From a virus: a stretch of 46,687 nt of DNA. How positions within the stretch are numbered: the stretch's first letter is position 1; the number at the start of each line of letters is the position of its first letter. The stretch is taken from IMG/VR virus record IMGVR_UViG_3300009173_000020, positions 1 through 46,687 of that record. One strand, 5' to 3'. A program made the translations under genes and the position numbers. Positions 12,990 to 45,266 of the stretch are shown in pieces. Under the pieces are notes generated by a model. The model did no database searches, was not told the origin of the DNA, and saw only the letters and a program-made list of their open reading frames with translations.

Positions 12990-13026
12990 GTGCCGAATCT
13001 TGAGGGCACGCCTCGTCTAGGGTGTC

Positions 13027-13449: not shown

Positions 13450-13527
13450 ATCCGTTTTCCTTTTCGTTTCGTTTCCATTTTCGTTTCCGGTCAAGGGACC
13501 ACCCCTCGACGCGCCAGAGTACGCGGG

Positions 13528-15413: not shown

Positions 15414-15751
15414 CCCGCACGCCCTCGGACAACGTACTTTTCCCAAGCGGCATAGGAGACATCAATCCAAATTCGGACCGCGTGGATCACTTCCCCTTCT
15501 TCGTCCTTGTGGAAGCTCTCGGCGTCCTCGGTTCCTGGCAAGACGCGGCAGATCCACTCGGTCCGCCACTCCCCCTCCCCGTGTGGGAAGCGCATAGCGC
15601 AGACGTGTAGCCCGCTTGAGTGTAGGACTTCAACAAGGGCGTCCGTCGCCACTCTGCGATTTGCCCCGCGCTTGTCCGCGTCCTCCGCGAGGCCCACGAG
15701 CCCCGCAGAGTCCGTCACATCAAAATCCACGGTGATAGGCTGCTCGGTCAT
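15410..15751 (-). CDS. Hypothetical protein
   Basis: 113 residues from ATG 15751, which overlaps the DUF932 stop (ATGA); the longer frame from 15877 covers the upstream gene and is rejected. It is acidic with mixed alpha/beta character, starting MTEQPITVDFDVTDSAGLVG and ending in YVVRGRAG. A Trp-rich middle (EWRTEWICR) and a final IWIDVSYAAWEKY look like packed strands. No known motif. It is embedded in the coupled replication operon. Confidence 0.55.
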   Translation of the reverse strand: MTEQPITVDFDVTDSAGLVGLAEDADKRGANRRVATDALVEVLHSSGLHVCAMRFPHGEGEWRTEWICRVLPGTEDAESFHKDEEGEVIHAVRIWIDVSYAAWEKYVVRGRAG

Positions 15752-26678: not shown

Positions 26679-26831
26679 ATGAACGCCTACTCGGCACTGG
26701 TGACTGGCACGCCGCCACCAAACTTGGTACGGTGTAGCAATGTTCCTTTGCCCCAGAGCCCTCGTATAGGCACGAAGGGGGCAGGGGGTAGGTGCGTCTT
26801 ACTTACGTCCAGGGATGGAGGCCTAGCATGA
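26679..26831 (+). CDS. Possible 50-residue small protein coupled to the motif-bearing gene
   Basis: ATG 26679 opens a 50-codon frame ending in TGA 26829-26831, overlapping the next start (ATGA). AGGATT lies about 7-12 bases upstream. The peptide is Pro/Gly-rich (VTGTPPPNLVRCSNVPLPQS) and unstructured-looking. Coupling to the next gene supports expression, composition does not. It may be a leader. Confidence 0.35.
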   Translation: MNAYSALVTGTPPPNLVRCSNVPLPQSPRIGTKGAGGRCVLLTSRDGGLA

Positions 26832-28711
26832 GCATGACCTTCGCAAGCCTCACCAAAAACAAGCCATACAGCGGCAAGGGCAAGCGCAAGGGCACACCTG
26901 GGCACTACACCTATGATTACGATGAGCCCAAGGGGCGGGATAAGAAAGAGCACCGCGGTGCGGCCCGTATTCACGCAGCGAATACCGCGGCTATAGATTA
27001 TTTCAATGCTGAAAAGGACTCTTCCGTCGATGCTGTTGAGGATATGACGGAGCTTGCGTATGCGCCCGACGCTTACCCCAAGATGAAGGCGTTGGAGGGG
27101 TGGACAAAAGCGATGGGCCTAAAGGTGTTTGGCACAGGTGTGTCTGCCACAAGCGCCTACGTCACCATAGAAGCGCCAGGTGAAGACCTGTTTTCGGATG
27201 TGAAGGTGCGGTTTAGCGATCACGGGAACATGGGCAGGGGACATGCTGTGAGTGGTAAAGCCGACGTGAATATCGCGCAAGGCACGGCCCGCGATTTTGT
27301 CACAGGAATATGGGAGGCGCTAGATACTCTTTTAGACAGGCTCGAAATGGACGAAGAAGACGAGCCTGGGTATGAGGCGGCTGTGGCGCACATTAGCGAC
27401 GTGCAGGCAGCTCTTGTGCAAGTAAAGAGAGGGGAATTAGCGAAACTAGAGCACGCACGCCCTATCGAGGGTGCTCACATACACCCCAGGGTGCTTTCTG
27501 CGCAGCTAGAGATCCACGCTGCCCGCATATGGGGGCTTCAATCTAACCTTGAAAAAATGGCCGTTGCCAAAGGACTTCCTATGACCTTTTCAGATATAAT
27601 TAAAGCCCGAGGCGGCGGATACAGCGGCAAGGGCAAGCGCACGGGGAGCCCTGGGCACTTCAAGTATGATTACGATGAGCCCAAGGGACAGATCGGGTTC
27701 AGCGGGGTGGTGGTGGAGGCAAAAAAGCCAAAGAAGAGACGCAGCGATGCTCAGCGCCAGCTTTCAATGTTCGGTGAGGCAGAAGCCCCGCACATACCTG
27801 GAGCTGCGGCCCCGAAGCACACTGGCCGCGCAAAACCCGCCGCGCCTGGACAGGCCAGCATCTTCGACGCGCCCAAGGACACGAAGACGATTGACGTGGA
27901 AGAAGCCATCGCGGAGAAGAAAGCGCCCAAGGCAAAACTAACATGGCGGTCGGAGAAAGCGCGGGACATGAATATGCACCGCGACCCCAGCGAGCCGATA
28001 GCGGCGCTTATGGACGCCACGAGCCTGAGCGAATTGAAGGCGTTGATTGCGGCAGACCCGCGATTGGCGCTTGACGAGGTAAGAAGCGCAGGACGCAAGC
28101 ACATTGCCCGCGTGGTGATTGATGATGATCAGATGGGTGAGATCTCGATAGAAGAGGCCATCGCGGAGAAGAAAGCGGCTTTAACGCCCGCGAGCCTTGT
28201 TTCTTTCTTAAAGGAGGGATCCGGCACTAACTCTGTAAGCGCGAGCGAGCTAAAATACTCATTTGGGGGCACGGTTCAACAGCACACAAAAATGCTTACA
28301 AGCATGGTTCAAGGGGGCGAGCTTGTGAAAGAGGGCAAACAGTACCGCCTGGCGGAGGAGAACGCTTCGACGGCCACCGAATCAATCCTAAGCAAGATTA
28401 CACCCGAAAAAGTGATGGATTTTGTGACCCCCGGCAAAGGCCCACTTGCCGCCAGTAACGCCATAAGTATTGATGATGCTTTATTCTACTTGGGCGACGA
28501 TGGGCAGGAAGGGTATTCGGTTGAGCAGGGCCGTGAAGTAAAAACGCCTTTGCGAAAAGAACGGGAGGCGCTTGTCAGGCAAAAGCTGGACGAGATGGTG
28601 CAGCAAGGGACGCTAAAGAAAATTGGGCCAGAGGCATACGCACGACCAGATTTCGGCACAAAACCTGCGGGCGAGAATGAGTATTTTAGCGATTCTCCGT
28701 ATCGCACATAA
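26828..28711 (+). CDS. Multidomain protein with two Y-x-GKGKR/YDYDEPKG elements
   Basis: About 627 residues from ATG 26828 (GGAGG at 26817-26821). The shared element occurs at residues 14-36 and 265-287: Y-S-GKGKR, a short linker with PGH, then YDYDEPKG. The 200-residue segment between them is alpha/beta (AYVTIEAPGEDLFSDVKVRF) then helical. A Lys/Ala/Pro linker follows the second element, containing two EEAIAEKKA words. A winged-helix-like part comes next (PASLVSFLKEGSGTNSVSAS and on), then a C-terminal helical segment. No enzyme motif is seen. It lies between the small and large terminase genes. Related elements are in the proteins at 34389 and 36970. I infer a packaged or head-associated protein, unproven. 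Confidence 0.6.
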   Translation: MSMTFASLTKNKPYSGKGKRKGTPGHYTYDYDEPKGRDKKEHRGAARIHAANTAAIDYFNAEKDSSVDAVEDMTELAYAPDAYPKMKALEGWTKAMGLKVFGTGVSATSAYVTIEAPGEDLFSDVKVRFSDHGNMGRGHAVSGKADVNIAQGTARDFVTGIWEALDTLLDRLEMDEEDEPGYEAAVAHISDVQAALVQVKRGELAKLEHARPIEGAHIHPRVLSAQLEIHAARIWGLQSNLEKMAVAKGLPMTFSDIIKARGGGYSGKGKRTGSPGHFKYDYDEPKGQIGFSGVVVEAKKPKKRRSDAQRQLSMFGEAEAPHIPGAAAPKHTGRAKPAAPGQASIFDAPKDTKTIDVEEAIAEKKAPKAKLTWRSEKARDMNMHRDPSEPIAALMDATSLSELKALIAADPRLALDEVRSAGRKHIARVVIDDDQMGEISIEEAIAEKKAALTPASLVSFLKEGSGTNSVSASELKYSFGGTVQQHTKMLTSMVQGGELVKEGKQYRLAEENASTATESILSKITPEKVMDFVTPGKGPLAASNAISIDDALFYLGDDGQEGYSVEQGREVKTPLRKEREALVRQKLDEMVQQGTLKKIGPEAYARPDFGTKPAGENEYFSDSPYRT

Positions 28712-28743
28712 AGCTAAGGGGTGATTGAAGGGACGGAATTGAA

Positions 28744-28956
28744 ATGGACGAGGACCGTAGAGCTATCTTGCTGCCTCCTGGCCGTGATACTGCTCGCAAT
28801 AACCATATGGACAAAAACCTGATTTGCTTCGAGTGCGATCATCGCCAGAAAACGCCGGGATTTTGCGAAAAGTGCGGTGGCAGCACCGAAGAAATTGAGT
28901 TTTGGTATGGACCGGATTTTGTGAATGTCGGAAGTAGTAGCCCAACTTTTATCTAG
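28744..28956 (+). CDS. Small zinc-ribbon protein
   Basis: 70 residues from ATG 28744, ending 32 bases inside the large terminase gene. Residues 28-44 hold LICFECDHRQKTPGFCEKCG, two CxxC pairs (C28-x2-C31 and C41-x2-C44, approximate numbering), a zinc ribbon. The N-terminus is charged (MDEDRRAILLPPGRDTARNN). Possibly a nucleic-acid-binding or packaging accessory protein; the name of the family is not known to me. Confidence 0.55.
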   Translation: MDEDRRAILLPPGRDTARNNHMDKNLICFECDHRQKTPGFCEKCGGSTEEIEFWYGPDFVNVGSSSPTFI

Positions 28957-30622
28957 TGCCGAAGGACGGCGGGCGCTCAGCTTAGAGAGCCCTACGTTCT
29001 TCGACACATTCTATTGCAGTATGCGATGGGCCGCACACCGCGAGAATTGGCTAGAGACTTTCCACACCACCATCGCTTCGGCAAAAGAATCAATGGACAA
29101 GGCCAGATGCCTGATCCTCGCTCCGCGGGACCACGGCAAAACCGAGGCCGCGGTGACGCTCACATCCTGGGCGATATGCACAAACCGCGACATTCGAGTG
29201 CTCTGGATTTCTGAGAGCTTGGGCCAGGCCGAGAAACGGATGCGCCGTGTTAAGAGCCTGCTCGAATCCGAGCGGGTGGTCGAAGACTGGTGCAGCTCAC
29301 CAGAGAGCGGGTTCGGACCCTTTTTGCAGGCGGACACAGACCGCTGGATGGCCACCCAGGTCTACGTCGCCCGCCAACTCAATAGCGTGGACCCTACGCT
29401 CGAAGCTGTGGGCAGTGGTGGGGCGATTACTGGTGGTCACTTCGACCTGATCATTTGCGATGACATCGAGGATGACAAAACGGTCTACACTCAAGGCCAG
29501 CGCCAAAAGACCCGTGAGTGGTTTCGCGGCACCATCGGGCCGATGCTCGTGCGCGGGGGCACGATGATTGTTATTGGAACCCGCAAGCACCACGGGGATC
29601 TCTATGGGCATATGCTGACAGACCCTACGTGGCGGGTTATCTCGGACAAGGCAATTTTGACGTGGCCGGATAAGTACAGATTCGAGCTAGAGAAAGACGC
29701 TCGCGGGCGCGAGGTCATTACAGGCGTCATTGTCGAGGGCGAGCCCGAGGTGCTCTGGCCCGAAGAACGGGATATTGAATATCTGTTGCGCGAGCGCCAG
29801 GCCATCGGTCAGGTGTTATTTTCGCGAGAATTTCAGAATGAAGTCCAGGATGACAGTGCAGCAGCGTTCCGCATGGCGTGGCTCAAAGCCGCGATGGAGC
29901 GGGGAAAGGATCTGAGCTTCTACGAGATCCCAGACGTGACGGGGCTCGACGTTGTCCAGGGATGGGATCTCGCACTGGTCACGGACGCGAAGCACGCCGA
30001 GAACCGCGACACTGACTACACAGTGGGGATTACCTGGGCGCGTGACAATGACGGGAACCGCTATCTGATGGGCATTCGCCGCGAGCGCGGCCTTACGCCC
30101 GCGCAGCTCGAAGGTATCGTGAAACATGAATTTCACAAATTTGGGCTGCACGTCCGCAACATCGCCGTCGAGAAAAACAATTTTGGCGAGCTGATTTACC
30201 TGGGCCTACAGAAATCAACAGACCTACCCCTCAAGCCGCATATCACAACGGGTAGGGCGAAAGCCGACCCCTGGGAGGGCGTGCCCTCGCTAAGCGTGTT
30301 ATTCGAGAACGGAAAAGTGATTCTACCGTCAAAGACAAAGGAAGACCGCGAAATGCTGGAGCCTTTGATCAATGAATTGTGGGGTCTCGGTCGCGAAACG
30401 CACGACGATACTGTAATGTCTCTTTGGATTGCAGAGACAGTTTTGCGAAAAAGCTCATTTGTTCATCGTGTGAGCTTTGACGACAATGCTGAATTTAACG
30501 CGGCGGCGGACGACCGCTTACGACAACTCTACGGGGAGGATGCTCAGGGGGAGGTGCTTGATGACGAAGATGCCACCAACCCCCTAAGTGCATTTTGGGC
30601 GACGGTTCCCTGGAGAAGGTAG
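28925..30622 (+). CDS. terL: Terminase large subunit
   Basis: 565 residues. The ATPase half has Walker A LAPRDHGKTEA (about 64-74), Walker B DLIICDDIEDD (about 174-184) and a coupling segment VIGTRKHHGDL. The nuclease half begins near residue 345: GWDLALVTDAK with the first catalytic Asp, then a central KNNFGELI and a final HDDTVMSL with the acidic pair. It drives ATP-dependent DNA packaging through the portal and cuts the concatemer. Length and motif order are typical for tailed phages. ATG 28925 lies inside the zinc-ribbon gene. Next genes are fibre-like rather than the usual portal, which lies about 14 kb further on. Confidence 0.92.
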   Translation: MSEVVAQLLSSAEGRRALSLESPTFFDTFYCSMRWAAHRENWLETFHTTIASAKESMDKARCLILAPRDHGKTEAAVTLTSWAICTNRDIRVLWISESLGQAEKRMRRVKSLLESERVVEDWCSSPESGFGPFLQADTDRWMATQVYVARQLNSVDPTLEAVGSGGAITGGHFDLIICDDIEDDKTVYTQGQRQKTREWFRGTIGPMLVRGGTMIVIGTRKHHGDLYGHMLTDPTWRVISDKAILTWPDKYRFELEKDARGREVITGVIVEGEPEVLWPEERDIEYLLRERQAIGQVLFSREFQNEVQDDSAAAFRMAWLKAAMERGKDLSFYEIPDVTGLDVVQGWDLALVTDAKHAENRDTDYTVGITWARDNDGNRYLMGIRRERGLTPAQLEGIVKHEFHKFGLHVRNIAVEKNNFGELIYLGLQKSTDLPLKPHITTGRAKADPWEGVPSLSVLFENGKVILPSKTKEDREMLEPLINELWGLGRETHDDTVMSLWIAETVLRKSSFVHRVSFDDNAEFNAAADDRLRQLYGEDAQGEVLDDEDATNPLSAFWATVPWRR

Positions 30623-30632
30623 GGGTATATAT

Positions 30633-30962
30633 ATGAGGATAAGCACGATTACAACAACGGTCACGACCGCGGCTGATGGTAGCGCCACTCAGACGTTTTA
30701 TCGCGGGGATTTGCCTCGCGACCCATCGCTCTGCGAGCTGCAAATAAGCTTTACTTGCGCGGACGCGAACCCCACTGCCACCGTGAATATTTTGCCAGTG
30801 GGGGATAGGGCGGGGTGGAAGCAGCACGCCGCGGGTATCAGTGAGAGTGATACTGTCATGATCCAGTCTCCAACGATACAAGCGTTTCAGCTTGTTTTCG
30901 CAGGCGGCGGGGACACGAAAGACACCATCGTCACAACGACAATGAGGTCTAAGAGCATCTGA
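30633..30962 (+). CDS. Small structural-like protein
   Basis: 109 residues from ATG 30633, preceded by GGAGAAGGTAGGGG; a frame from 30588 would add a basic stretch within the terminase end and is rejected. Thr/Ser-rich beta strands dominate (TITTTVTTAADGSATQTF, ATVNILPVG, DTVMIQSPTIQAF), as in small decoration or fibre-associated proteins. The TGA overlaps the next ATG (TGATG). No motif recognised; role inferred from neighbours. Confidence 0.5.
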   Translation: MRISTITTTVTTAADGSATQTFYRGDLPRDPSLCELQISFTCADANPTATVNILPVGDRAGWKQHAAGISESDTVMIQSPTIQAFQLVFAGGGDTKDTIVTTTMRSKSI

Positions 30963-31756
30963 TGGCCACCCTCGTCGAAACAAAAGACGGGGTTATATCG
31001 GCATCGGGCAGAGTCTCGCTGCTACCCCCTGTGGCCACTTTGGCCACTTTGGCCGCAACCCCCGTCTACGGGCTAACCAATGGCATAGGTGCGTTGGTCC
31101 TTGGACAAGAAGATTACTATATCTGGATTGCGACCTCGACACATACGCCCGACGGGGCCAGCGTCATCCTTCCGGCCAGTTACAACCCTACAACCCCCTC
31201 AATGGGGAGGTGGGTCCGCGAGATTGAGAAAGCCCTGCCTGACGGCGTGGCCACTCTGGATAGTGACGGCGTCCTAGAACAGGCGGCGAAGAAAGTCTAT
31301 GCTCAATCCGAGACATTAACATGGGATGCGCTTGCCGATGGGATGCCCGTCGTGCGGAGCGGACCCACGATTGCATCAGGCGTACTGACGCAAGCGGTCA
31401 CCGCGAGCACTACGGATATACCAAGTGCCGCGGCGGTTAAAACATTTGTTGAGGCCCAAGCCAGCGCGGGCGGTGCGCTTACAGTAGTGTCCAAGACTGC
31501 GGATTATACAGTCTTGGCGACGGATAGCGTGATTTACGGTGATCCTGGTTCGCAGGCAACGATCACGATTACACTCCCTCAACCTTCGACGGTTGGGAGC
31601 GGGAAGGAGTATCGCGTAAAACATATAGGGACGAGCAATTCTGTAATTGTCGACACTAGCGGGGGCAACATTGATGGAAATAGCGCGGGCGAAACTTTGA
31701 CGCCGCTCGAATCAACTACAGTAGTCTGTGATGGTACTGACTATTGGATCCACTAG
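30962..31756 (+). CDS. Fibre-like structural protein
   Basis: 264 residues. The N-terminal third (LLPPVATLATLAATPV, then a Trp/Ile-rich stretch) looks like an attachment part. The centre (residues 90-170) has VAT/DS/SA words typical of fibre repeats. The C-terminal 80 residues (DYTVLATDSVIYGD, ITITLPQP, YRVKHIGTSNSVIVDTSGG, ending DGTDYWIH) match the beta-rich tip module seen at the ends of many tail-fibre and tail-spike proteins. ATG 30962 overlaps the previous TGA. Located between terminase and portal, unusual for a fibre gene. Confidence 0.65.
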   Translation: MATLVETKDGVISASGRVSLLPPVATLATLAATPVYGLTNGIGALVLGQEDYYIWIATSTHTPDGASVILPASYNPTTPSMGRWVREIEKALPDGVATLDSDGVLEQAAKKVYAQSETLTWDALADGMPVVRSGPTIASGVLTQAVTASTTDIPSAAAVKTFVEAQASAGGALTVVSKTADYTVLATDSVIYGDPGSQATITITLPQPSTVGSGKEYRVKHIGTSNSVIVDTSGGNIDGNSAGETLTPLESTTVVCDGTDYWIH

Positions 31757-31765
31757 GAGAGACCC

Positions 31766-33352
31766 ATGTCCCATAAGTTTTTTAAGTCGAATGTTGAAGC
31801 ATCCGACATTATTTCAGGAACCGTCGCCGCTGCGCGATTGCCCACCCTTGACGCGATAAGCACCGCCGCGGCGGATCTTGCAATGGGCGCTAACGCCATA
31901 ACAGGATTGAAAGATCCGTCCGCCGACCAAGACGCTGCGACTAAGAAGTTTATCGAAGATAACTACGATACGAGTACGTCGGTCGCGAGCACGTACTTGA
32001 CGCAGTCGAGCGCAACCAACACGTACTTGACGCAGTCGAGCGCAAGCGCAACCTACGCCACCACGGGCTACGTTAGCTCTGCAATCGAAGGCATCGACCC
32101 CAAAGAGATTTGCGAAGCCGCTACGTCGTCTTCGAGCGATACTCTAGGGTTCACATGGTCCGCGGGAGAGTACACAGAGTCAAGCGCGACTGGCGCATTG
32201 TCCATCGACGGGGTCACGCTCGCAAATGACGACCGTGTCCTGGTCAAGAACGACTCTACCGCCGCGCAGAACGGCATCTATGTGTGCTCCAACATTGACG
32301 GCTCTAGCGCGGTCAAGCTTACTCGCGCCACGGATACCGACTCTGTAGATGGACTAGTCAATGCGTACACGTTCATTAAGACTGGCGGGACTCAGAACGC
32401 GGGTAAGGGGTTCGTCCAGACGACTCTAACGGGTTCAGGTGTTATCAATTCCTCAGGTATAGGATTTACGCAATTCTCATCGTCGGTATCGGCGTTGACT
32501 TCCGAAGAAGTACAAGACATCGCAGGGGCCATGTTCTCATCGAACACCGAGACGGGCATTACTGCGGTATATCAAGACTTCGATGGCACAATTGATCTAA
32601 CGGTTGCCGACCTAACGGTGGATGGTGACACGGGCTCAACCGCCATGTCCCCCGGCGATACCCTCAAGTTTACGGGCGGCACCAACGTCCAAACATCCAT
32701 GAGCGGTGATATTCTCACTATCTCGTCCACCGACACCGACACTCAGCTCTCCCAAGAGCAGGTTGAGGACTTCGCTGGACCTTTGGTGGCGACTGGCGGC
32801 ACCAAGACTGGCATCACGGTGACTTACGACGATGTCAATGGCGACATGGACTTTGTTACCGAAATCACAGCCGGGAACATCAGCAGCCACGCGATCACAT
32901 CAGGGACGATCAATAACTTCGCTGTGACCAGCGTGCAATCATCTAACCCTGGGATCAGCGCCAACATTGCTAGTGGCACTCTTACTCTCGACATGGACGA
33001 CAACCCTGCTATCTCGATCAGCCAGGGCGCAGGTTCCACTAATTTCTTGGTCGCCTCCCACACCATCCCGTCCACGGCTGACGGCCCAAAGCAGATGTAC
33101 TGCTTCACGACAAGCACCGGCGATTTGACGCTCACGTTACCTCGTGCGGGCACACAATACGCTCCCGTCGGCACTTCCTTTGTCGTCAAACTGCTGAGTA
33201 CGGGCGGTGGCGATGTGACTGTGGCACGGTACAGCACTGACAAGGTAGACACCGTGGCTTCTGATGTCACCCTGGACACCGCGGGCGAGGCTCTCCGGTT
33301 CACAGCAATAGCCGACTCGGGTAATGGTACAACCACTTGGGTCATCAGCTAA
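31766..33352 (+). CDS. Tail-fibre-like protein
   Basis: 528 residues from ATG 31766 with AGGAGAG seven bases upstream. The N-terminal part carries the fibre-type word MGANAITGLKDPSADQDAAT and a coil of TYLTQSSA repeats encoded by a 26-bp direct repeat (31990-32045). The middle contains EICEAATSSSSDTLGFTWSA and VLVKNDSTAAQNGIYVCS, as in phage side-fibre proteins. The C-terminal half has GDTLKFTGGTNVQTSMSGD and a final tip module resembling the one in the gene at 30962. This layout is typical of trimeric tail fibres. Receptor specificity cannot be inferred. Confidence 0.75.
   Translation: MSHKFFKSNVEASDIISGTVAAARLPTLDAISTAAADLAMGANAITGLKDPSADQDAATKKFIEDNYDTSTSVASTYLTQSSATNTYLTQSSASATYATTGYVSSAIEGIDPKEICEAATSSSSDTLGFTWSAGEYTESSATGALSIDGVTLANDDRVLVKNDSTAAQNGIYVCSNIDGSSAVKLTRATDTDSVDGLVNAYTFIKTGGTQNAGKGFVQTTLTGSGVINSSGIGFTQFSSSVSALTSEEVQDIAGAMFSSNTETGITAVYQDFDGTIDLTVADLTVDGDTGSTAMSPGDTLKFTGGTNVQTSMSGDILTISSTDTDTQLSQEQVEDFAGPLVATGGTKTGITVTYDDVNGDMDFVTEITAGNISSHAITSGTINNFAVTSVQSSNPGISANIASGTLTLDMDDNPAISISQGAGSTNFLVASHTIPSTADGPKQMYCFTTSTGDLTLTLPRAGTQYAPVGTSFVVKLLSTGGGDVTVARYSTDKVDTVASDVTLDTAGEALRFTAIADSGNGTTTWVIS
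31990..32045. repeat. 26-bp direct repeat within the fibre gene
   Basis: Two exact 26-base copies (31990-32015 and 32020-32045, period 30 bases) encode successive 10-residue units TYLTQSSA(T/S)(N/A). A third degenerate unit follows. In-frame change of copy number would alter fibre length. Confidence 0.9.
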
Positions 33353-33375
33353 CCACCTGATCGGAGTACGTCCGC

Positions 33376-34203
33376 ATGGCATTTAATAAGGCATTCACGA
33401 AAATTCAAGTGAGCGGCCAAGGCGACGTTGATGCGGACGTACACACCGATGATCTGACCTTTGTGGCTGGATCAAACATGACCATTACCACGCTTGGCGA
33501 CGTGATCACGTTCACGTCGGCAAGCGGGGGTTCTGGTGGGGACGTAGTGGACGATACGACGCCGCAACTCGGCGGCGACCTAGACGTTAATGGCAAGACA
33601 ATTGCGTCGGTCGTTAACGGAGATATTACAATCGCTCCACACGGGAGCGGTGACTTGATTCTTGACGGCCACAAGTGGCCGCAGACCGATGGCACTAATG
33701 GCCAGGTACTTACAACGGACGGCGCAGCGCAATTGTCCTGGGCCTCCAGCAGCGGGTCTGGTGGGTTAGCTCTCACCACGGCGACCGCCACATTCGATAA
33801 AGATACTTCTTTCTGGTCAACGCTCACGGGCACAAGCCAGTACGGAGAAGTGCAATGGGACACGGGGATTAATTTACCGGCCAGCGCGGTGGTCATCGGG
33901 ATCACTTGCCAGGTTACCACCGTGTTTAACAACATGGCGGGCTACGAAGTGGTTGGCCCGTTCTACGCGCCGACATCGACGCGGGTTTCCCTCCTAGGTG
34001 GACATTATTCGGGCAGCTATGGGATTTCCTCCTACTACTCTGGGCAGATCCTCAATGTGGTAGGGACGGCGACAATGGGGATCCCATATGTGAATGGGAC
34101 ATCAGCGGTGGATCTAAAGTTGAATTTTTACCACTCGGCATATAGTACGCCCACCGCTCCGACACTGGGCGCGGCGACGGTAACGGTTCATTATTTGAGC
34201 TAG
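33376..34203 (+). CDS. Fibre-like structural protein
   Basis: 275 residues from ATG 33376, GGAG about 9 bases upstream. It starts MAFNKAFTKIQVSGQGDVDA, then has VHTDDLTFVAGSNMTITT (the same strand pattern as the Ig-like repeats elsewhere), a fibre-type centre (TTPQLGGDLDVNGKTIAS, GDLILDGHKWP, GNGQVLTTDG-like word at about 112-120) and a C-terminal globular domain ending ATVTVHYLS. The DVNGK / LILDGHKWP words are common in phage and prophage fibre proteins. Probably a second fibre or a short tip protein. Confidence 0.65.
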   Translation: MAFNKAFTKIQVSGQGDVDADVHTDDLTFVAGSNMTITTLGDVITFTSASGGSGGDVVDDTTPQLGGDLDVNGKTIASVVNGDITIAPHGSGDLILDGHKWPQTDGTNGQVLTTDGAAQLSWASSSGSGGLALTTATATFDKDTSFWSTLTGTSQYGEVQWDTGINLPASAVVIGITCQVTTVFNNMAGYEVVGPFYAPTSTRVSLLGGHYSGSYGISSYYSGQILNVVGTATMGIPYVNGTSAVDLKLNFYHSAYSTPTAPTLGAATVTVHYLS

Positions 34204-34215
34204 GGGAGGCGGCAA

Positions 34216-34386
34216 ATGATCTCGGGGATCTTTTTTATTGCGAGCGGGGTATCCTTTCCCGCAGTTTTGGTCCGCGACCTGGGAGGCGGGAGCCTTCTGA
34301 TTTGCGTTTTTACGGAAAATGGGCCAGAAATACGAACGGCCACAGACGACACAACGGAACACCCTGGTGTGTTCATTAGGGATTAG
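34216..34386 (+). CDS. Small hypothetical protein
   Basis: 56 residues from ATG 34216, with AGGGGAGG about 7 bases upstream, ending two bases before the ParB-like gene. It encodes MISGIFFIASGVSFPAVLVR, then a short Gly-rich turn, a strand LLICVFTEN and an acidic tail, ending VFIRD. The first 20 residues are hydrophobic enough for a signal or membrane segment, but could also be a beta core. Good ribosome site and exact fit in the gap support it as real. Confidence 0.55.
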   Translation: MISGIFFIASGVSFPAVLVRDLGGGSLLICVFTENGPEIRTATDDTTEHPGVFIRD

Positions 34387-34388
34387 AC

Positions 34389-36434
<2,046 letters not shown>

Positions 36435-36436
36435 CT

Positions 36437-36973
36437 GTGAGCGATTACTCAGAGTTGCTCAAGGCAAGCTCGAAAAGCGCAAAGCGCAAGCGCAAAGTCA
36501 AGGCTGCAAAGAAGCAGGCGAAGCGTGAATCTTCGGGATGGAAGCCCCCCGCAGGATATTCGGCCATTCCGAAGTCTAAAAAGGGAGGCTATCGAAAGAT
36601 GGTCGGCGGCAAGTGGGATTACAAGTATCCGCCCGTGGGGCAGCAGGGGCAGCAGGTATCTGCTCCAGGGGATCTGGAGACCGCGGCGAAGGTGCTTCGC
36701 GACGCCCCCAAGGTTGCCAGCAAGGCCGCGAAAACAGCCGCCTCATTATCTCAAAAGTTGGCCAAAGTATCTCGCGCCTCGGGGGGCGCTGTTTTCGCTG
36801 CGCTGCACGAAGTAGGCGCATGGTATAAAGCAAAGCATCACGAGATTGAAGAAGCTATACACATGGCTAAGGTCGCCAGTGATTTTTCAGTTGATCCTGG
36901 GCAAGCAGTTGACCTGATGCAGACCCTTTCTCAGATGGTCATGGCCCTCGACCTGGATGACGATGACGAATGA
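36437..36973 (+). CDS. Basic lysine-rich protein of the polyvalent block
   Basis: 178 residues from GTG 36437, AGGAGGT about 4-5 bases upstream within the end of the previous gene. It begins MSDYSELLKASSK, echoing MMDYEAVMLKATRG of the next protein, followed by a very basic patch (KRKRKVKAAKKQAKRES). A weak relative of the shared element comes next (GGYRKMVGGKWDYKYPP, about 54-70). The rest is helical (AAKVLRDAPKVASKAAKTAA and on) with an acidic end. The TGA overlaps the next ATG (ATGA). Probably DNA-binding or head-internal; a link to the antirestriction proteins is inference. Confidence 0.55.
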   Translation: MSDYSELLKASSKSAKRKRKVKAAKKQAKRESSGWKPPAGYSAIPKSKKGGYRKMVGGKWDYKYPPVGQQGQQVSAPGDLETAAKVLRDAPKVASKAAKTAASLSQKLAKVSRASGGAVFAALHEVGAWYKAKHHEIEEAIHMAKVASDFSVDPGQAVDLMQTLSQMVMALDLDDDDE

Positions 36974-39900
36974 TGGATTACGAAGCCGTTATGCTCAAGG
37001 CCACCCGCGGGCAAGCCTATCGCGGCAAAGGCAAGCGCCTTCAAACCGCCGACGGCTATCGTTACATTTACGAAAAGCCGAAGCGGGGACGAGCCTCGAA
37101 GCTGGGCATCTTACTCCAGGGGCTCACGCAGCTCTGGCAACCAGGACAGTCTAAGACCAAGGACACGGGCGCTCGCGCCCGAGGGCTCCTATCTGCGGAC
37201 TTTTGGCATGGCATCGTCAAGGCCACTGACCTGGACGCGCTGCGTTATCTTCGCGATTTTCTCACAGCTCACCAGACGAAGGGCGAGCGCAAGGAATCGC
37301 AAAAGCCCGCAGCCAGTCCAAAGAGTAAAGACCCGCGTGTCGACACGCCTCCTGCGCCCTGGGAGTCAATGGCCCATGTGCTACGTCATTTGAACCGACG
37401 CATTGCGAGCTTGGAGGCCGATCAGGTCGTTGAACAGCAGGGGTTGTTTGCAGAACCCGAGCCCATCGCGGAGCCCGAGCCCCCCGAGCCCCCAATCGCG
37501 GGAACCGGCAGAGTCGGGATGACCGTTGAGCAGCTCATCGCAGACCAGGACCGTCGAGCTGCTGAGAAAGAACAAAAAACTGCGGAAATGCAAAAACTCA
37601 TATCCGAGGGGACGGTTGAGTTTAGCGATGGAGCAGGACACCACGCCTCAATCACGCCCGAGCCCGCCGAGCCGGGGCGATGGCGCACAACCCGATATGA
37701 TGATCAGGGGATTAGCGGGCACACCGTATTCGATGCGCCTGAGTTGGCCATAGCGCGATTGATCGAGGACGGCCAGACCACCCCGGCCCCTGGCACGTTG
37801 GATCAATTTGGGGCGTTACAGCCCGAGCCCATCGCAGCCCCCGAGCCCATCGCGGAGCCTGAGCCCATCGCGGAGCCCGAGCCCATCGCGGAGCCCGAGC
37901 AGCAAATTACGGTAGGGGCGTCCGTTTGGGTCAAAGACGGAAATGGGATCTCTCCAGCGAAGGTCATAAAGGTGCGGCCTCACCCACGTTGGGGGGTATC
38001 ATACGACCTGGAGGTATTGACAGGCCCATCCCGAGGGCAGTTATTCGGGCGAAGCGCGGAGCGTTTGTCCGCACGAGAAACACATACGGCCCACCATCAG
38101 AGTACGTCGATAAGCGAAGCGAAAGAGCTGTCCGAAGGAAAGCCGTTTCGAGCGCCCCATTACTCAACGAGCGCAGCCGCAATTAAGGGCGAAGTCTCCT
38201 TTGCTCAAGGCGGGATCTTACACCTGGAGCAACTCGAACAGTTTTCGGAAAAAGCGATTTCCGCAGTTGTTCGCGCTTTGATTGAAGCACCGGACGTGAC
38301 GGTGACATGGAACACGGGGCAGGTGCTACAAGATTTGAATCGAGAAAGGTTAGCGCAGCATTTGCAGGCGCTAGGGCTCGAACCCGAAGAACCCGAGCCC
38401 ATCGCGGAGCCCGAGCGCCCGTCCCTGGCCGAGCAAATGGCGACGGTTGGCGCTCCAGGTGTCCAGAGCAGTCTACCGCACCCTGATTTCCCCTTGGGCC
38501 AAGCCGAATGGGATCTTTTGGTCGCATTGCGCGAGGCTACCAGTTTTGACGAGCGAGACCGCTTGGTCGAGGCGAACGAAGACGCCGCGTGGAAGCTCCG
38601 AGAAAATACCTTGCTCAGTATCATGGCTAACGTCGTGAACGATGAGCGAGCGGACCAATTCTTTGAGCCGCCCGCACCGGCCGCGGAGCCCGCACCCGTG
38701 ATCTACGGTGCCTACCATCGACCCGTAGCGTCCTCGACGGTCCCTAGAGGGTATTCAGGCATCGGTGCTCATCCCGACTTTGCCCACGGCACCGTAACTT
38801 ATCCCCAGGCACTTGACCCCGAAGAAGCAAAGCGCATGAGCTTGCGGGAGATCCCGTCACCTGAGCGCAAAGAAGAGGTGATTCAAGAGGCCCTCGCTGA
38901 CATGATGGAGGACCGGGACGATAACCTAGAGCTATTCGACGATGACCCCACCTACTTTGAGCGTATGGTCGGGTACGCCATCGACGACAACAACGTACAC
39001 ATGGACCGTAAAGAGCTTGCGGCAGAGGTTGCAAAGCGTCTGCGGGAGGCAGTTCTGAGCGAACCCGAAGATAACTTCGAGACCATGCCCGAGCCTGAGC
39101 CCGAGGTCTCTAGGCCGCGCTTTATGGACGCGGAAGGTCGTGTCGAGCCCGCGGTGCTTTACTCGATGCTCTACGAAGCGATGAAGGTAGATCCCCAGGT
39201 GCGTCTAACGGCCCAGGCGAACGATGAAGAGAATTTTATACACGGCGCGGCCCGTGTGATCTCCGGGAAAGCAACGGACTTGCTCGTCGAAGCCCTTGAC
39301 CAGGACGTGCCCGAGAATATCCGCGAGCAGAATACAGAAGTCCTGAATCGGTTTATTGAAATTTACAGCTCTGAGTCGGGCAAGTACGGCGAGCAGAACC
39401 GCGAAGTATTGGAAAAACTGTACGCCGATCTACGGCCCCCCGAGCCCGCCCCGCAGGTCATTCGTGGGGAAGCGGAAGGCGAGCGTAGAGAGCGTGAGGC
39501 CCTGCGTCCGACGGAACCCGCGCCCCCGCGCATAGACCTGGCCAGCCACATGGGCAAGAAGATGACCAAAGGCGAGCGCGAGAAAGCGAATGCTCGCGCC
39601 CAGGAATTGGTGCAGTCGGGCCGGGACTTGACCGATGCGGAAAAGCAGGAGGTCGCTGAGTTTTCGGGCGACGGGGGTATTGGCTCCAGTCTGAACCAAT
39701 ACTTCACGCGGCCAGACATCGCTTCTGCGATGTGGTCGATGATGCAAGCTCATGGCTTACCCGAGAACGCGAAGGTGCTAGAGCCCGCTTGCGGGGCAGG
39801 CGTGTTCCTAGAGACCGCGCCCGAAGGGATGCAGCTCACAGGCGTTGAGATTGATCAGGGCGTGGCCGACGTGGCGAGTGCGCTGCATGGTGACCAGAAC

Positions 39901-42900
39901 GAGATCCTTTCGGAGTCCCTCGAAGCTCATGCGCTGGTACGCGAAGGGCTAATGCCCGAATATCAGGGCGTGATCACGAACGCCCCGTTTCTTGCTCGCA
40001 CGGGCGGTACTCAGCTACTCCACAAGCCTGAGATCGCGGTGGCCGACGAATACTTCGTGGACACGAGCCTGGATATGGTCGAGGACGGCGGGCTGGTTGC
40101 GATGATTGTACATGGTCGTGTTATGCACGGCCCCAAGGCCGCTTTTCGCAAAAAGCTACTGGCAAAGGCCGAATTGGTAGATGCCTTCCGTCTTCCCGAG
40201 GAAGCTTTCGCACACGCACACACCGCTCCTATCTCTGATGTCCTGATTTTCCGCAAGCGGGATTCTGCGGTAGCCGCGGCGCTTAAAACGGGCGGTGAGG
40301 ATATGCTGCGGGCAGTGGACGCCTGGGACCAAGACTTTATTGACGGTAATTGGTTCGACGCCCACCCTGAGCGTGTGCTCGGAACAAAACTGAGTAAAGA
40401 AGAGACCGGATGGCGGGCGAAGATTACAGGCGACGCGGACACACTAGCCGCCCGAATGCTCGAATTGACGGAGGAAGGCGCGACTCCTGGTGAGGCCGGG
40501 ACGCCTGTGACCTGGGCGCAGTTACAGGCATTGGCGGAATCAAGCGACGTGTTTGAGACCGCGATCAATCACGCGAACAGCCTGGAGGCAAAGACGCCGC
40601 CCGTCGATGGCGAGGTTAAAGTCATTAACGGCAAGCAGCATATCCTGGTGCGCGGGCGCTGGACGCCCGTTGACCAGGTAGACGTGGTGGCGCTGATTGA
40701 TTCGAGCGATGAAGCGTTGACGCGGGCCATCGAGTCGAGCCGACTGGTGGCCAGCTTGCGGGACGCGGTTCTTGCGGGTGACTTCTTTAAGGCCCGAGCC
40801 TTGCGGCTTGAAGCATCCCAGGCCGTGAAGTCATGGTTTTTGGATTACGGACACCCGCTCGAACACAAAACGCTTGAGCTGCTGGCCAAAAAAGACCCCG
40901 CGGTCAATCTGCTGATCACAGCTATCGACACTGAGGGCGGGTTATCTGATTTACTCTCGAAGGATCCGCAGATTGCCGAGCAGGCGAATATTGACAGAAC
41001 CGACTTGCTGGAGGTTGCTCAGTACCTTGCGGAGATTGATAAACACGGGATTCTTGACATACAGCGGGTTCTTGATTTGTTCGAGGGGGAAGCTTCAAGA
41101 GCGGAAGCGCATGTCAAGATCTTGGCAAGCGGCAAGTTTGCTGTCGAGGCAGATGGTCAGATTCGACACTTCGAGGATTATGGCTCTGGTCTGATTTACG
41201 AAAAGTTTGATGCGGTAGAGCGCCAGCTTGCGGGCGAACAACCCACGGTGGCAGAAAAAGACCAACTCGAAAAGCAAAAACAATTCTTGGCCGAGCGGAT
41301 CGCGCAAATGCGCCGGTCAATTGATAATGCGGAGCTGAGCCTGCTCCACAAATGGATCCCCACGGAAATTATCGCGGAGTGGTGGACAGAGAGCCGTGGC
41401 GTCCCTCCGGGGTACAGCCACATTGACATTACGCAGGAGAACGGCGTCTACCACGCGGCGTATGTGGCACCTGATGGGTCGCGGGAGCCGTTGATATATG
41501 CGCGGGAGCGCGAAGAGACGGACGATCCTAAGAAGCGATATGTATATAAGGGACCCAACATTGACGTGATTATGCGGCATTGGAACCCTCAAGGGATGCA
41601 AATCACTGACCGCCACGCGCAAGAGTTTGCCGCGTTCGAGCAGGACTTCAAGGAGTGGTGCTTAACGTCGAACCACGCCGAGGGTCTGGACGAGATGTAT
41701 AACCGGACGTTCTTTGGAGACGTGCCGCGGGCGGTGGGATCTGCGCCATTGCAGCTCGAAGGGATGCGTGAGGGGATAACCCCCCATCATTTTCAAAATG
41801 AGGCCGCTCGGTTTTTCTTGGACCGCGGCAAAGGGATCATGGCGCTGGACGTGGGCCTGGGCAAGACGTTTGCGGCGATGATGCTGGCGCGGAGGCTTAA
41901 ACAGACGGGCAAGACCCGCCGCCCCACGGTTGTTTGTCCAAAATCGGTTCTCGTCAATTGGGCCGAGGAATTAGAGTTTTTGTTTCCAGGATCGAAGGTG
42001 CTTGTAGTCGGAGCATCGCCCAAGCGGGATCGCAAGGGCAACGTCGTTATGAAGGATGGCAAGATTGTCTATCGGGACGACACCAATAATCGAGAGACAA
42101 CGGCACGTAAGCTCACCGACATGATGCAGAATGACTACGACCTGGTGATCATGACCCGAGAGATCTTTCAGGGTATCTCTGTGAAAGAAGACACACTCCG
42201 CGACTTTACAGAGGGAGACTACTCGTTCCGCCGTGCGCGTGACCTAGCCGAGGCTCGTGGTAGAAAAACCAAGGAGTCGCAGGAGAAAGCGGAGGAACAG
42301 ATCAAGGCCAATTACGATTCCCAGATTGCGAGTGGCTTTAAGGGCACGGGCGGTCTCCCCATCTTCTTTGAGGACCTGGGCATCGACGCGATCATTCCAG
42401 ACGAAGCGCACGCATACAAAAACTTATATGGGCTGCCTCGAATCCGAGGCAAGAAGAAGCCGAAGCACATGGGCGGGGGGATGCAATCGCAGCGGGCGCG
42501 AGATATGCACCTAAAAGCGCGGTTGGTCCTGGAGCGACGGAAGGCAGGGGAGTCGAAGGAAGATCATCAGGCGCGTGTCGCGGCCATGCGGGCGCGTACA
42601 GGCGGCGAGCGCGGGGACGGCGTGTACTTCTTGACGGCCACGCCGACTCAGAATAGCCCGATTGAAGTCTACAATATGTTGGATATTCTCGCGCCCGAAG
42701 AGTTGGAGGCGCGTAGTATCCATGACGTTGAGGACTTTGTCACGAAGTATTGCGAGATCGAGGATCGCCTGGGCCTGGACGTTGGCGGAAATGTTGTAGA
42801 ACAATCGGAGGTCGTGGGGTTCAAGAATTTGCCGGAAATCCAGGGGCTCCTAGCTAAGTATCAGATTTACCGCACAGCGAAAGACGTGGGTTTGTCCATT

Positions 42901-44955
42901 CCTGACGCGCCCCATACCCGCCATGTGTTGGACATGACGGATCAACAACAGGTGATTTACGACGATGTCCAGGCAGAGATTGAAGCACTGCGTGCGTCGG
43001 GCGAGACCGAGGACCAACAGAAAGCTTTTGGGATGCTGTCACAGCTTGAGAAGATCGCGATGGATCTAAGCTTGTATGATCCCGTGGCGTTTCCTGATGC
43101 GTGGCGGAAAGCCCCCAAGTACCTGGCGGTTAGAGACGCGGTTGTTTCCCGAATGCCAGAGACCAAGAAAGAAGCAAAGACAAAGATCAAAGAGCTGGAA
43201 AAGCAGCTTAAAGCCGCCCCCGAAGAAGAGCGCAAGGCTCTGCAAAAGAAACTGGATTATTATACATTGATCGCAGAGCGCGGTGGCGGGCACATTATCT
43301 TTTGTGATTATCACAGCGGGGGCTCTCAAGACCGAATCAAGCAACTCCTGGTGGAGGCGGGGATTCCCGCAGACGAAATTGCAATCGTTAACTCGAAGAC
43401 CGCGGGCGCGTCGAAGCGGCAGGAGATCAGTAAGGATTTTAACGCGGGAAAAATCCGCGTCGTAATTGGGTCTAGTGTCATTGGCGAGGGCATAAATTTA
43501 CAAAAAACGTGTACGGACATTCACCACGTCACGATCCCTTGGAACAATGCAATTGTTCATCAGCGTAATGGGCGCGGTGTCCGCCAGGGGAACCCCGCCG
43601 ATACGGTGCAACTGCACGAATACGTGGCGCGGGGCACTTATGACGCCTACAAGGCCGCAACGGTCATGGGTAAAAAGGGCTGGCAGGACAAATTGCAAGG
43701 TGGCAGCGAGCGCATTGACATTGACTCTGAGAGCACGACACGTATGGAAGTCCTGATCGAGATCAGCAAGGATCCCGAAGCGGCCAGGGCCGAGTACGAA
43801 ACGCAAATGATTGAAATGCGCGAGGCGTTCACGGCCAAAAAAGAAGCCGACGCCATTAAAACGCTCTCGGAGCTGCGCCGAATGCGTTGGCTATATGAAA
43901 ACTCTTCTCCGAGCGAAATGAATGATCGGCGGCAGGCTAAAATCACGCAATTACGAAACCGTGCGCGAGGGAATCAGTTTCTACCCGCGCACTTGAAGGC
44001 GGCAATCGACGAGGATCGGGCGGGGTTTATTTCCGCAAAAGGCCAGGCATTTTTCGAGGGGCAGCTTATTCGCCGCGCTGGCCGTGAATACATCGTGGAC
44101 GCTATTGACTATCGGAAAAAGCGGATCGTTATCAAGTCTGAGGACAACGTATCTCCGCCCGTGTTGAAGCAGAGAGCCAGCGAGCGCGAGAGCGAAATCC
44201 GCTCAGAGCTGTGGGGCACGGGTAAATATCAAAGCGACGGGCTTTATGGACAAGCTCGCGTGCTCGTGGATGAAAATAAAAAAGACACGCCCGAGTACAA
44301 GGCGCTCAAAGATCGCGTAGGCGCTCTTGAAGCCGAGTTGAAGAAATGGGAGAAAGAGCAAAAAGGAAAGCGCGGGGCGACTCCCGATCAGCCGTCGTTC
44401 GTGGAGTTGAACGCGGGAGGCGTATCGACACGCCCAGGGAATGAGGCCGATATTGTCACTAAGCAACTGGAGTCGGTCTACCAGGTCTCGTCTATGACTA
44501 CTCGGTTTTCTTCGCGACAATTCGAGCGCCACGCGGACACAATGCAAGGGAAGTTGCAATCGCTGGTAGATAAGGGTGGCGGCTCCCAATATGACCGCGC
44601 CCCCGGCCTGATCGTTACCGCCGAGGGGGATATTGCCCGATACTTGGACGCTGAGTTGCCCCAGGGGGCGACCTGGTGGACGCCAACAGAGGCGGGTTTA
44701 GGCGCTTTGGCTCAGGCGATTGCGTCGGATTATGTTGAAGCGGGCTATCATCAACCGCTCAAGTCATACGACTGGTCGTGGGTTGCGCAGGACATGTCCG
44801 AATCAGGGCACCGCCTATCCGAGCTGTCGAAGACCTGGGCAAAATACAACCAGACTCCTGTGTGGGTCGCTTTTAACAAAAAGCTCAACCGTGAGATCCG
44901 GCACTTGCTTAAAGCAAAGGACGTGGCCCAAGAGATTGAGACGGAGGCTGCATGA
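36970..44955 (+). CDS. Giant polyvalent methyltransferase-SNF2 helicase (DarB-like antirestriction)
   Basis: 2661 residues. N-terminus: shared element at residues 17-41 (Y-R-GKGKR, YRYIYEKPK). AEPEP-type repeat linkers (about 155-180, 283-311, 470) separate a small beta domain (about 312-370) from a ComM/Mg-chelatase-like fragment (about 390-450, KPFRAPHYSTSAAA, GGILHLEQL). An amino-methyltransferase follows: motif I VLEPACGAGVF (about 936), motif IV NAPF (about 1004, where NPPF/Y is usual). SNF2-type helicase: Walker A DVGLGKT (about 1627), PDEAH (about 1810), FLTATPTQN (about 1887), SSVIGEGINLQ (about 2167), HQRNGRGVRQGN (about 2197). The C-terminus has coiled coil (about 2435-2475). Methylase plus helicase is the architecture of phage P1 DarB, a head-packaged protein protecting injected DNA from type I restriction. 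Confidence 0.85.
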   Translation: MMDYEAVMLKATRGQAYRGKGKRLQTADGYRYIYEKPKRGRASKLGILLQGLTQLWQPGQSKTKDTGARARGLLSADFWHGIVKATDLDALRYLRDFLTAHQTKGERKESQKPAASPKSKDPRVDTPPAPWESMAHVLRHLNRRIASLEADQVVEQQGLFAEPEPIAEPEPPEPPIAGTGRVGMTVEQLIADQDRRAAEKEQKTAEMQKLISEGTVEFSDGAGHHASITPEPAEPGRWRTTRYDDQGISGHTVFDAPELAIARLIEDGQTTPAPGTLDQFGALQPEPIAAPEPIAEPEPIAEPEPIAEPEQQITVGASVWVKDGNGISPAKVIKVRPHPRWGVSYDLEVLTGPSRGQLFGRSAERLSARETHTAHHQSTSISEAKELSEGKPFRAPHYSTSAAAIKGEVSFAQGGILHLEQLEQFSEKAISAVVRALIEAPDVTVTWNTGQVLQDLNRERLAQHLQALGLEPEEPEPIAEPERPSLAEQMATVGAPGVQSSLPHPDFPLGQAEWDLLVALREATSFDERDRLVEANEDAAWKLRENTLLSIMANVVNDERADQFFEPPAPAAEPAPVIYGAYHRPVASSTVPRGYSGIGAHPDFAHGTVTYPQALDPEEAKRMSLREIPSPERKEEVIQEALADMMEDRDDNLELFDDDPTYFERMVGYAIDDNNVHMDRKELAAEVAKRLREAVLSEPEDNFETMPEPEPEVSRPRFMDAEGRVEPAVLYSMLYEAMKVDPQVRLTAQANDEENFIHGAARVISGKATDLLVEALDQDVPENIREQNTEVLNRFIEIYSSESGKYGEQNREVLEKLYADLRPPEPAPQVIRGEAEGERREREALRPTEPAPPRIDLASHMGKKMTKGEREKANARAQELVQSGRDLTDAEKQEVAEFSGDGGIGSSLNQYFTRPDIASAMWSMMQAHGLPENAKVLEPACGAGVFLETAPEGMQLTGVEIDQGVADVASALHGDQNEILSESLEAHALVREGLMPEYQGVITNAPFLARTGGTQLLHKPEIAVADEYFVDTSLDMVEDGGLVAMIVHGRVMHGPKAAFRKKLLAKAELVDAFRLPEEAFAHAHTAPISDVLIFRKRDSAVAAALKTGGEDMLRAVDAWDQDFIDGNWFDAHPERVLGTKLSKEETGWRAKITGDADTLAARMLELTEEGATPGEAGTPVTWAQLQALAESSDVFETAINHANSLEAKTPPVDGEVKVINGKQHILVRGRWTPVDQVDVVALIDSSDEALTRAIESSRLVASLRDAVLAGDFFKARALRLEASQAVKSWFLDYGHPLEHKTLELLAKKDPAVNLLITAIDTEGGLSDLLSKDPQIAEQANIDRTDLLEVAQYLAEIDKHGILDIQRVLDLFEGEASRAEAHVKILASGKFAVEADGQIRHFEDYGSGLIYEKFDAVERQLAGEQPTVAEKDQLEKQKQFLAERIAQMRRSIDNAELSLLHKWIPTEIIAEWWTESRGVPPGYSHIDITQENGVYHAAYVAPDGSREPLIYAREREETDDPKKRYVYKGPNIDVIMRHWNPQGMQITDRHAQEFAAFEQDFKEWCLTSNHAEGLDEMYNRTFFGDVPRAVGSAPLQLEGMREGITPHHFQNEAARFFLDRGKGIMALDVGLGKTFAAMMLARRLKQTGKTRRPTVVCPKSVLVNWAEELEFLFPGSKVLVVGASPKRDRKGNVVMKDGKIVYRDDTNNRETTARKLTDMMQNDYDLVIMTREIFQGISVKEDTLRDFTEGDYSFRRARDLAEARGRKTKESQEKAEEQIKANYDSQIASGFKGTGGLPIFFEDLGIDAIIPDEAHAYKNLYGLPRIRGKKKPKHMGGGMQSQRARDMHLKARLVLERRKAGESKEDHQARVAAMRARTGGERGDGVYFLTATPTQNSPIEVYNMLDILAPEELEARSIHDVEDFVTKYCEIEDRLGLDVGGNVVEQSEVVGFKNLPEIQGLLAKYQIYRTAKDVGLSIPDAPHTRHVLDMTDQQQVIYDDVQAEIEALRASGETEDQQKAFGMLSQLEKIAMDLSLYDPVAFPDAWRKAPKYLAVRDAVVSRMPETKKEAKTKIKELEKQLKAAPEEERKALQKKLDYYTLIAERGGGHIIFCDYHSGGSQDRIKQLLVEAGIPADEIAIVNSKTAGASKRQEISKDFNAGKIRVVIGSSVIGEGINLQKTCTDIHHVTIPWNNAIVHQRNGRGVRQGNPADTVQLHEYVARGTYDAYKAATVMGKKGWQDKLQGGSERIDIDSESTTRMEVLIEISKDPEAARAEYETQMIEMREAFTAKKEADAIKTLSELRRMRWLYENSSPSEMNDRRQAKITQLRNRARGNQFLPAHLKAAIDEDRAGFISAKGQAFFEGQLIRRAGREYIVDAIDYRKKRIVIKSEDNVSPPVLKQRASERESEIRSELWGTGKYQSDGLYGQARVLVDENKKDTPEYKALKDRVGALEAELKKWEKEQKGKRGATPDQPSFVELNAGGVSTRPGNEADIVTKQLESVYQVSSMTTRFSSRQFERHADTMQGKLQSLVDKGGGSQYDRAPGLIVTAEGDIARYLDAELPQGATWWTPTEAGLGALAQAIASDYVEAGYHQPLKSYDWSWVAQDMSESGHRLSELSKTWAKYNQTPVWVAFNKKLNREIRHLLKAKDVAQEIETEAA

Positions 44956-45266
44956 ACGAGGCGCTCGCAACGAATATCCTATCTATCCTAGCTGTAGATC
45001 ACCTGTACTATCGTAACTTTGGTTGGTATTGGTGGGGCATTAAGCGCGAATTGAAGCGCCTGGGTCACGGTCCATCCGAGCTAAAGCATTTAGGCGACTA
45101 TTACGACGGGTCCGTAGACGTGTACTATGCAGATCTAGAGATACCCGATATGATCGACGCGGCGTTGGTGCATCAGGATCAGCATCGGTTCCACAAGCGG
45201 AATAACTCGCGCTCGTTTCTACCTGACGGCGAGCCGTATATTTTGTTTGACGAAGACGCGGAGTGA
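44952..45266 (+). CDS. Small hypothetical protein upstream of the portal gene
   Basis: 104 residues from ATG 44952, overlapping the giant gene's TGA (ATGA). Aromatic N-terminal half (YYRNFGWYWWGIKREL), then a helix (RLGHGPSELKHLGDYY) and acidic C-terminal half (DVYYADLEIPDMIDAALV), ending LFDEDAE. No recognised motif. Coupling to the giant gene on one side and three bases to the portal on the other suggests an assembly or packaging accessory. Confidence 0.5.
   Translation: MNEALATNILSILAVDHLYYRNFGWYWWGIKRELKRLGHGPSELKHLGDYYDGSVDVYYADLEIPDMIDAALVHQDQHRFHKRNNSRSFLPDGEPYILFDEDAE

Follow-up and report, generated by a model that had tools for sequence, protein, structure and literature searches.

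Tagged proteins in a head-gene block

We analysed the 46,687-nucleotide sequence IMGVR_UViG_3300009173_000020 of an uncultivated virus (hereafter the window), in which a short element beginning Y-x-GKGKR (hereafter the tag) recurs within and among proteins encoded in a head-gene block and is linked to a predicted upstream protease site. The first-pass annotation of this DNA had reported five copies, at residues 14 and 265 of the protein starting at 26828, residues 193 and 330 of that at 34389, and residue 17 of that at 36970; all five were borne out, and a six-frame scan of the window with a looser pattern returned these five, one chance match and nothing else. All window features described here lie on the plus strand. 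Protein A (26828..28711, 627 aa), whose ATG at 26828 is preceded by a Shine–Dalgarno (SD)-like GGAGG, matched no family at default cut-offs and carries an N-terminal tag, A1 (YSGKGKRKGTPGHYTYDYDEPKG, 26867..26935), and an internal tag located by the pattern scan, A2 (YSGKGKRTGSPGHFKYDYDEPKG, 27620..27688). Protein B (34389..36434, 681 aa) contains an acidic stretch, tags B1 (YSGKGKRKGSPGHYTYDYGEA, 34965..35027) and B2 (YQGKGKRIDVGDTYRYEYDEPKG, 35376..35444), and a C-terminal ParB-like DGHHR domain (35706..36281) that lies 3' of B2; in other phages, homologues of this domain are preceded by different tags, and the Pfam ParBc_2 match to protein B is weak (E=0.07). The giant protein D (36970..44955, 2661 aa; phrog_11801, 2e-232; DarB-like phrog_10089, 3e-85) carries tag D1 (YRGKGKRLQTADGYRYIYEKPKR, 37018..37086), an N6-adenine methylase region (39685..40263; PF02384, E=5e-4, slightly below its cut-off) and an SNF2/helicase region (41605..43917; SNF2, 7e-20). 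The "weak relative" of the element reported in the protein at 36437 is real, and it belongs to a second tag type (type ii, PPAGYxxIPKxxKGGYRKxVxGKWxYxYP); this tag (KPPAGYSAIPKSKKGGYRKMVGGKWDYKYPP, 36542..36634) lies in protein C (36437..36973, 178 aa), which has an N-terminal SELLK|A.

Protein B also shows repeated [L]xxFA units (LYAFA, LIAFA, LTDFA, LLAFA and LLDFA) and a long poly-Asp stretch preceding its tags. Residues 376–450 of protein D give a Pfam Mg_chelatase (ChlI) match above cut-off, and a C-terminal ChlI match was also seen in a tagged protein of another locus (L154).

A near-identical sister contig (IMG/VR 3300027844_001155; L132), which extends past the window end, carries 13 elements, all inside the head/portal gene block, in seven proteins that include a DarB-like methylase-helicase with a Ulx-like neighbour, so the element is not limited to the five copies in three proteins first reported. 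Its gene order is portal, E, F, G', MuF, prohead protease (phrog_1028), scaffold-like protein, capsid (phrog_752) and tail genes; protein E (1898 aa) has four tags, F has a type ii tag, which also opens a protein there, and G' has two tags and a ddrB-ParB domain. BLASTP among the tag copies of the sister contig gave E values down to 1e-8, and matches to a hidden Markov model (HMM) of the tag reached 1e-21. In the window, the head block is marked by the terminase large subunit (28925..30622; phrog_38, 4e-75), a Ulx-like antirestriction protein adjoining D (44952..45266; phrog_1629, 1e-8) and the portal protein (45270..46685), which runs off the window and has a predicted protease site, LVK|A, close to its N-terminus (45315..45326).

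The DNA of copies A1, A2 and B1 (from 26867, 27620 and 34965) is identical over TACAGCGGCAAGGGCAAGCGC. Synonymous codons were identical at 15/16 positions between 26867 and 27620 (codon-usage expectation, 6.7) and at 14/16 between 27620 and 34965 (expectation, 6.4). Because these values exceed the codon-usage expectation, the duplication or gene conversion that had been proposed is supported, as a recent event, for these three copies, but not clearly for those at 35376 and 37018. Just ahead of A2, an internal MTFSDIIKA (27581..27607), which contains the predicted cleavage site IIK|A, shares its form with N-terminal leaders elsewhere (MFSDLIKA in locus L160). With its ATG and an upstream SD-like AAAGGA, it could be an internal start, and it looks like a fossil gene start or N-terminus.

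A predicted protease site upstream of the tags

The strongest regularity of the tag contexts is a predicted cleavage site, LxK|[AGS], shortly upstream of the tag. Among non-redundant contexts, LxK[AGS] occurred within 20 residues upstream of 73/85 tags of types i and iv and 98/112 tags of type iii, whereas the downstream counts were 4/85 and 9/112, respectively, against a background of 16–17%. In a set collected with an HMM of the tag core only, an LxK[AGS]-like site lay ≤20 residues upstream in 57 of 67 cases and downstream in three (background 16%). The P3 residue of the upstream site is mostly Leu, P1 is Lys, and P1' is Ala, then Gly, then Ser in order of frequency; the site stands ahead of internal as well as N-terminal tags. 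In the window, D1 follows an N-terminal MMDYEAVMLK|A and B1 follows DIIK|A, while the residues upstream of A1 (SLTK-N) and B2 (LVKR) do not form the strict site. The I/V/L-K-A ends that the first-pass annotation had noticed before the copies are real and more informative than the element itself, and the proteolytic-processing signal that it suggested finds support in the K-A site immediately ahead of the element but not in the element.

The same site recurs in the capsid. In the tag-bearing loci, every capsid open reading frame (ORF) whose N-terminus is complete has LxK|[AGS] ahead of its N-arm. These capsid proteins have homologues in Staphylococcus phage 812 and SPO1 (PDB 5lii, 9row and 9vel), and the mature capsid chain of phage 812 in PDB 9row begins after VVK, at the S of EDVVK|SFQTGYG, which is the aligned LxK position. 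In the tag-bearing phages, one predicted site type appears in capsid, scaffold, portal and protease. LxK sites in the sister contig numbered 14 in head proteins versus 3.1 expected and 5 in tail and other proteins versus 5.2 expected, and in the cultured Bordetella phage PHB04 the motif occurred in the first 60 residues of 12/16 head-block genes versus 15/108 genes elsewhere (p=1e-6), although both statistics are partly circular because the motif was read from these phages before counting. The upstream/downstream contrast and the capsid alignment are free of that circularity and constitute the cleaner evidence. The N-terminal sites of the prohead proteases (15/15) were discounted as evidence, the background in those site-rich ORFs being 0.67.

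Several related arrangements were seen in head proteins. In the sister contig, C-terminal residues 171–204 of the prohead protease (12949-13695) copy residues 26–59 of the capsid N-arm (14426-15808): GNIGYQQSPQLAGAGSLSALVPQSM and GDVGYQTPASISGAGSLSALVPQSL, respectively. In PHB04 (NC_047861; L001/L201), the head-block DarB-like protein, helicase, HD hydrolase and gp28 start with a hydrophobic leader of 5–8 residues, the leaders ending in FLKA, LTKA or LLKA; gp049, outside the block, has ILFLKS. Leptospira phage LE1 (KF114880; L203) has EIKK|SFSANT in its capsid protein, IIKATP in its protease and seven LxK[AS] sites in a scaffold-like protein, and its head proteins carry LxK sites and no tag.

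A family of tags on effector modules

Scans of viral contigs revealed two wider tag classes, a KYIRRVPKPGGGWRYFY-type, which includes the GKGKR type of the window, and a GPYIGPRGGKWAD-type; the GKGKR element is therefore one flavour of a wider set and is found beyond the phage of the window. Type iii tags (GP[YF]xGPRGGKWADxxHxxxW) occurred at 72 loci as 126 unique elements and type iv tags (KY[IVL][RK]RxPKxGGG[WY]xY[FY]Y) at 50 loci, and a single phage (G003) holds types i, ii, iii and iv together. The first half of every tag type is basic and the second half aromatic. At locus L160, three genes in a row start with one 35-residue sequence, MFSDLIKARQHKYIKRVPKAGGGYTYFY; elsewhere (L187, L200, L180, L181 and others), there are runs of genes each opening with MFRYSxxxDxLxKAxxHKYIRRVPKGVTKTGxTKYxYFYAG.

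Searches of other collections were largely negative. The tag peptides gave no real match by tblastn in the cultured-phage and plasmid collections; this absence is not proof, because an HMM search detected an N-terminal tag in gp4 of the cultured Thermus phage Lalka27a. A KPP23/RSP match was rejected as a tag, its aromatic half being missing. One narrow-pattern scan of bacterial genomes yielded no real match and one intergenic noise hit, and the DarB N-termini of P1, PHB04 and Lalka27a have no GKGKR tag. No model in Pfam, PHROG or NCBIfam covered the tag in the proteins scanned, and a literature text search with the tag peptides, whose coverage was mostly without subscription journals, returned no occurrence.

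The tags are located at protein N-termini or directly before effector domains (Mom-like, ART, zincin, PAPS reductase and ParB-like). Protein E, for example, is laid out as tag, PAPS-like, tag, Mom-like, tag, zincin, tag and PAPS reductase, and a protein of locus L252 has tags at residues 230, 374, 642, 829 and 1265 together with GNAT (286–347), ART-PolyVal (683–817) and PAPS (1651–1725) domains. At a third locus (L103), a layout of MuF, type ii tag, zincin, type i tag and ART-like was read by eye, with neither the zincin nor the ART confirmed by Pfam. In an unrelated phage, a GKGKR tag opens a Mom-like protein in which the neighbouring linker has diverged; the structure model of this Mom-like region matches GNAT folds, including that of phage Mu Mom. 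The architectures of E, L252 and L103 join unrelated effector domains in a head or early-injection context, which is the mark of a polyvalent protein.

Head genes were found near the tags at 27/34 and 67/72 tag loci versus 9/81 control viral loci, with a median gap of 255 bp; these fractions are indicative, the head markers having been built from related phages. The confinement to head-type gene blocks that the first-pass annotation had set as its own check was thus largely observed. Its idea of a signal shared by co-packaged proteins gains support by inference from the head-block position, the homologues of DarB, Ulx and DdrB-ParB and the precedent of P1 DarB: co-packaging is probable because the proteins are encoded in a block with terminase, portal, MuF, protease, scaffold and capsid and include homologues of P1 DarB/Ulx and DdrB ParB.

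Proposed processing of injected head cargo

We propose that the tags form a family borne by injected DarB-like or polyvalent head cargo of many phages and that the prohead protease cuts upstream of them at LxK|A, a reading to which we assign a probability of about 0.68. The working unit would consist of a short leader ending in [L/I/M/F]-x-K|[A/G/S], followed 1–15 residues on by a basic–aromatic tag of approximately 20 residues. Cargo would be made together with the head genes, either as single-module proteins or as polyproteins, and the leader, the tag or both would draw it into the scaffold-filled prohead, as for P1 DarB and the T4 internal proteins. The prohead protease, while cutting the capsid protein, the scaffold and itself at LxK|A/S/G, would then trim the cargo leader; where tags are internal, a cut before each would leave every effector module separate and starting with its own tag, and the modules would finally be ejected along with the DNA. 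The retained tag may act in targeting or prohead binding, in DNA binding or in ejection. Head packaging, cleavage of the cargo and polyprotein splitting are all inferred here from sequence. The unit would thus work like a capsid-targeting and prohead-processing signal, and its novelty would lie in the division of injected effector polyproteins; we consider it evenly balanced whether, in many phages, injected anti-host polyproteins are split inside the head into tagged effectors by the protease of capsid maturation.

Several points weigh against this proposal, in addition to the indicative nature of the head-gene fractions and the partial circularity of the site counts. The LxK motif is short, and 12–14% of tags, including A1 and B2, have no site. 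AlphaFold predictions for tags alone and for a tag with Mom gave a helix and a possible hairpin at a predicted local distance difference test score of 61 and under 40; this confidence is too low for the claim of a hairpin. Cleavage of the P1 capsid protein falls at E|S rather than K|A, and the P1 DarB N-terminus bears no resemblance to the tags. Finally, the large virion RNA polymerase cargo of phage N4 is packaged uncut (PMC5512222).

This last precedent also favours an alternative in which the tag and leader serve only in capsid targeting, the internal copies are remnants of gene fusion, and the polyproteins are packaged whole, with their sites uncut or cut only at the N-terminus. The first 30 residues of P1 DarB, whose N-terminal capsid-targeting signal comprises 10–30 residues, suffice to carry a reporter into the head (PMC9024508), and the internal MTFSDIIKA of protein A, with its start codon, resembles a fossil N-terminus. 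However, LxK|[AGS] precedes internal and N-terminal tags alike and matches the capsid site, and we regard targeting alone as unlikely. Slightly less probable is a reading in which the tag forms a DNA- or RNA-binding hairpin and, independently of processing, tethers the effector to the packaged genome or directs it to DNA once injected. The basic and aromatic halves of all tag types would suit such a role, as would the cargo domains that act on nucleic acids (Mom, methylase-helicase, ParB-like and PAPS/Dnd-like); yet the tags show no likeness to a known nucleic-acid-binding family, the ART and zincin modules are tagged too, and the coupled LxK site is left unexplained. We consider the tag a poor candidate for an inert interdomain linker or recombination seam for module shuffling, with no virion function: the three window copies and E2–E4 share codons beyond chance and the cassettes recur ahead of unrelated domains, but the tag is conserved across distant phages while the adjoining linker diverges, stands at the N-terminus of many single-module genes and is restricted phage-wide to the head block. 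A chance or low-complexity resemblance among Tyr/Lys-rich linkers, to which a short, compositionally biased tag is open, has a nearly negligible probability given the E values between copies (to 1e-8) and with the HMM (to 1e-21) and the occurrence in only five places in the six frames of the window.

Comparison with known head-cargo systems

The proposed tagged cargo has parallels in several known systems. As in the P1 Dar system, in which DarB and Ulx are packaged in the head and injected (PMC9024508), protein D joins a DarB-like N6-methylase with an SNF2 helicase and has ulx adjacent to it. The putative cargo proteins share an N-terminal element that might serve as a capsid-targeting sequence of the T4 and P1 kind. 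Unlike in P1, one unit is common to up to seven proteins and is repeated within them. No consensus targeting signal was found by BLAST among the P1 Dar proteins (PMC9024508); here, a shared unit is visible, and the predicted protease site that accompanies it can be compared with the capsid protein that the phage itself encodes. The tagged proteins also resemble polyvalent proteins (Iyer et al. 2017, PMC5512222) in being multidomain and in their ART-PolyVal, ddrB-ParB, methylase-helicase, zincin and PAPS-like domains; a text search of that paper shows neither a short tag ahead of each domain nor a protease site in common, and the paper proposes a different route of processing, by a metallopeptidase within DdrB (PMC5512222).

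The short N-terminal leaders are like those of the packaged and ejected T4 internal proteins and Alt, cleaved by gp21, and of phiKZ and SPN3US proteins, cleavage being predicted here; in those phages, capsid and scaffold are substrates of the prohead protease as well. In SPN3US, the prohead protease strips short propeptides off ejected head proteins (PMC10052503). The T4, phiKZ and SPN3US sites are of the Glu type, whereas those described here are of the Lys type, and no retained tag is described for those phages; moreover, the cuts identified in SPN3US take off N-terminal propeptides and do not split polyproteins into effectors (PMC10052503).

If the proposed processing is correct, it would parallel, in phages, the polyprotein processing of animal viruses, and LxK|A plus tag would be a sequence code that predicts cargo. 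Virion cargo and injected effectors could then be listed, and mature N-termini predicted, from a genome alone; the packaging and delivery of very large polyvalent proteins would be accounted for, since they would travel in pieces; and the unit could serve to bring proteins of choice into phage heads.

Distinct repeated units were also seen in other polyproteins that have the ParB-like domain. A 2500-aa ORF (L116) has four copies of LAxLGITADWWxDxSxEEQxxYLKxHPxSK between polyprotein domains, and proteins of three loci (L119–L121) each carry YKNPxLNKxIKYKxxxGEDxEGxxGNLLRL...LPPEG twice, upstream of a ParB-like domain.

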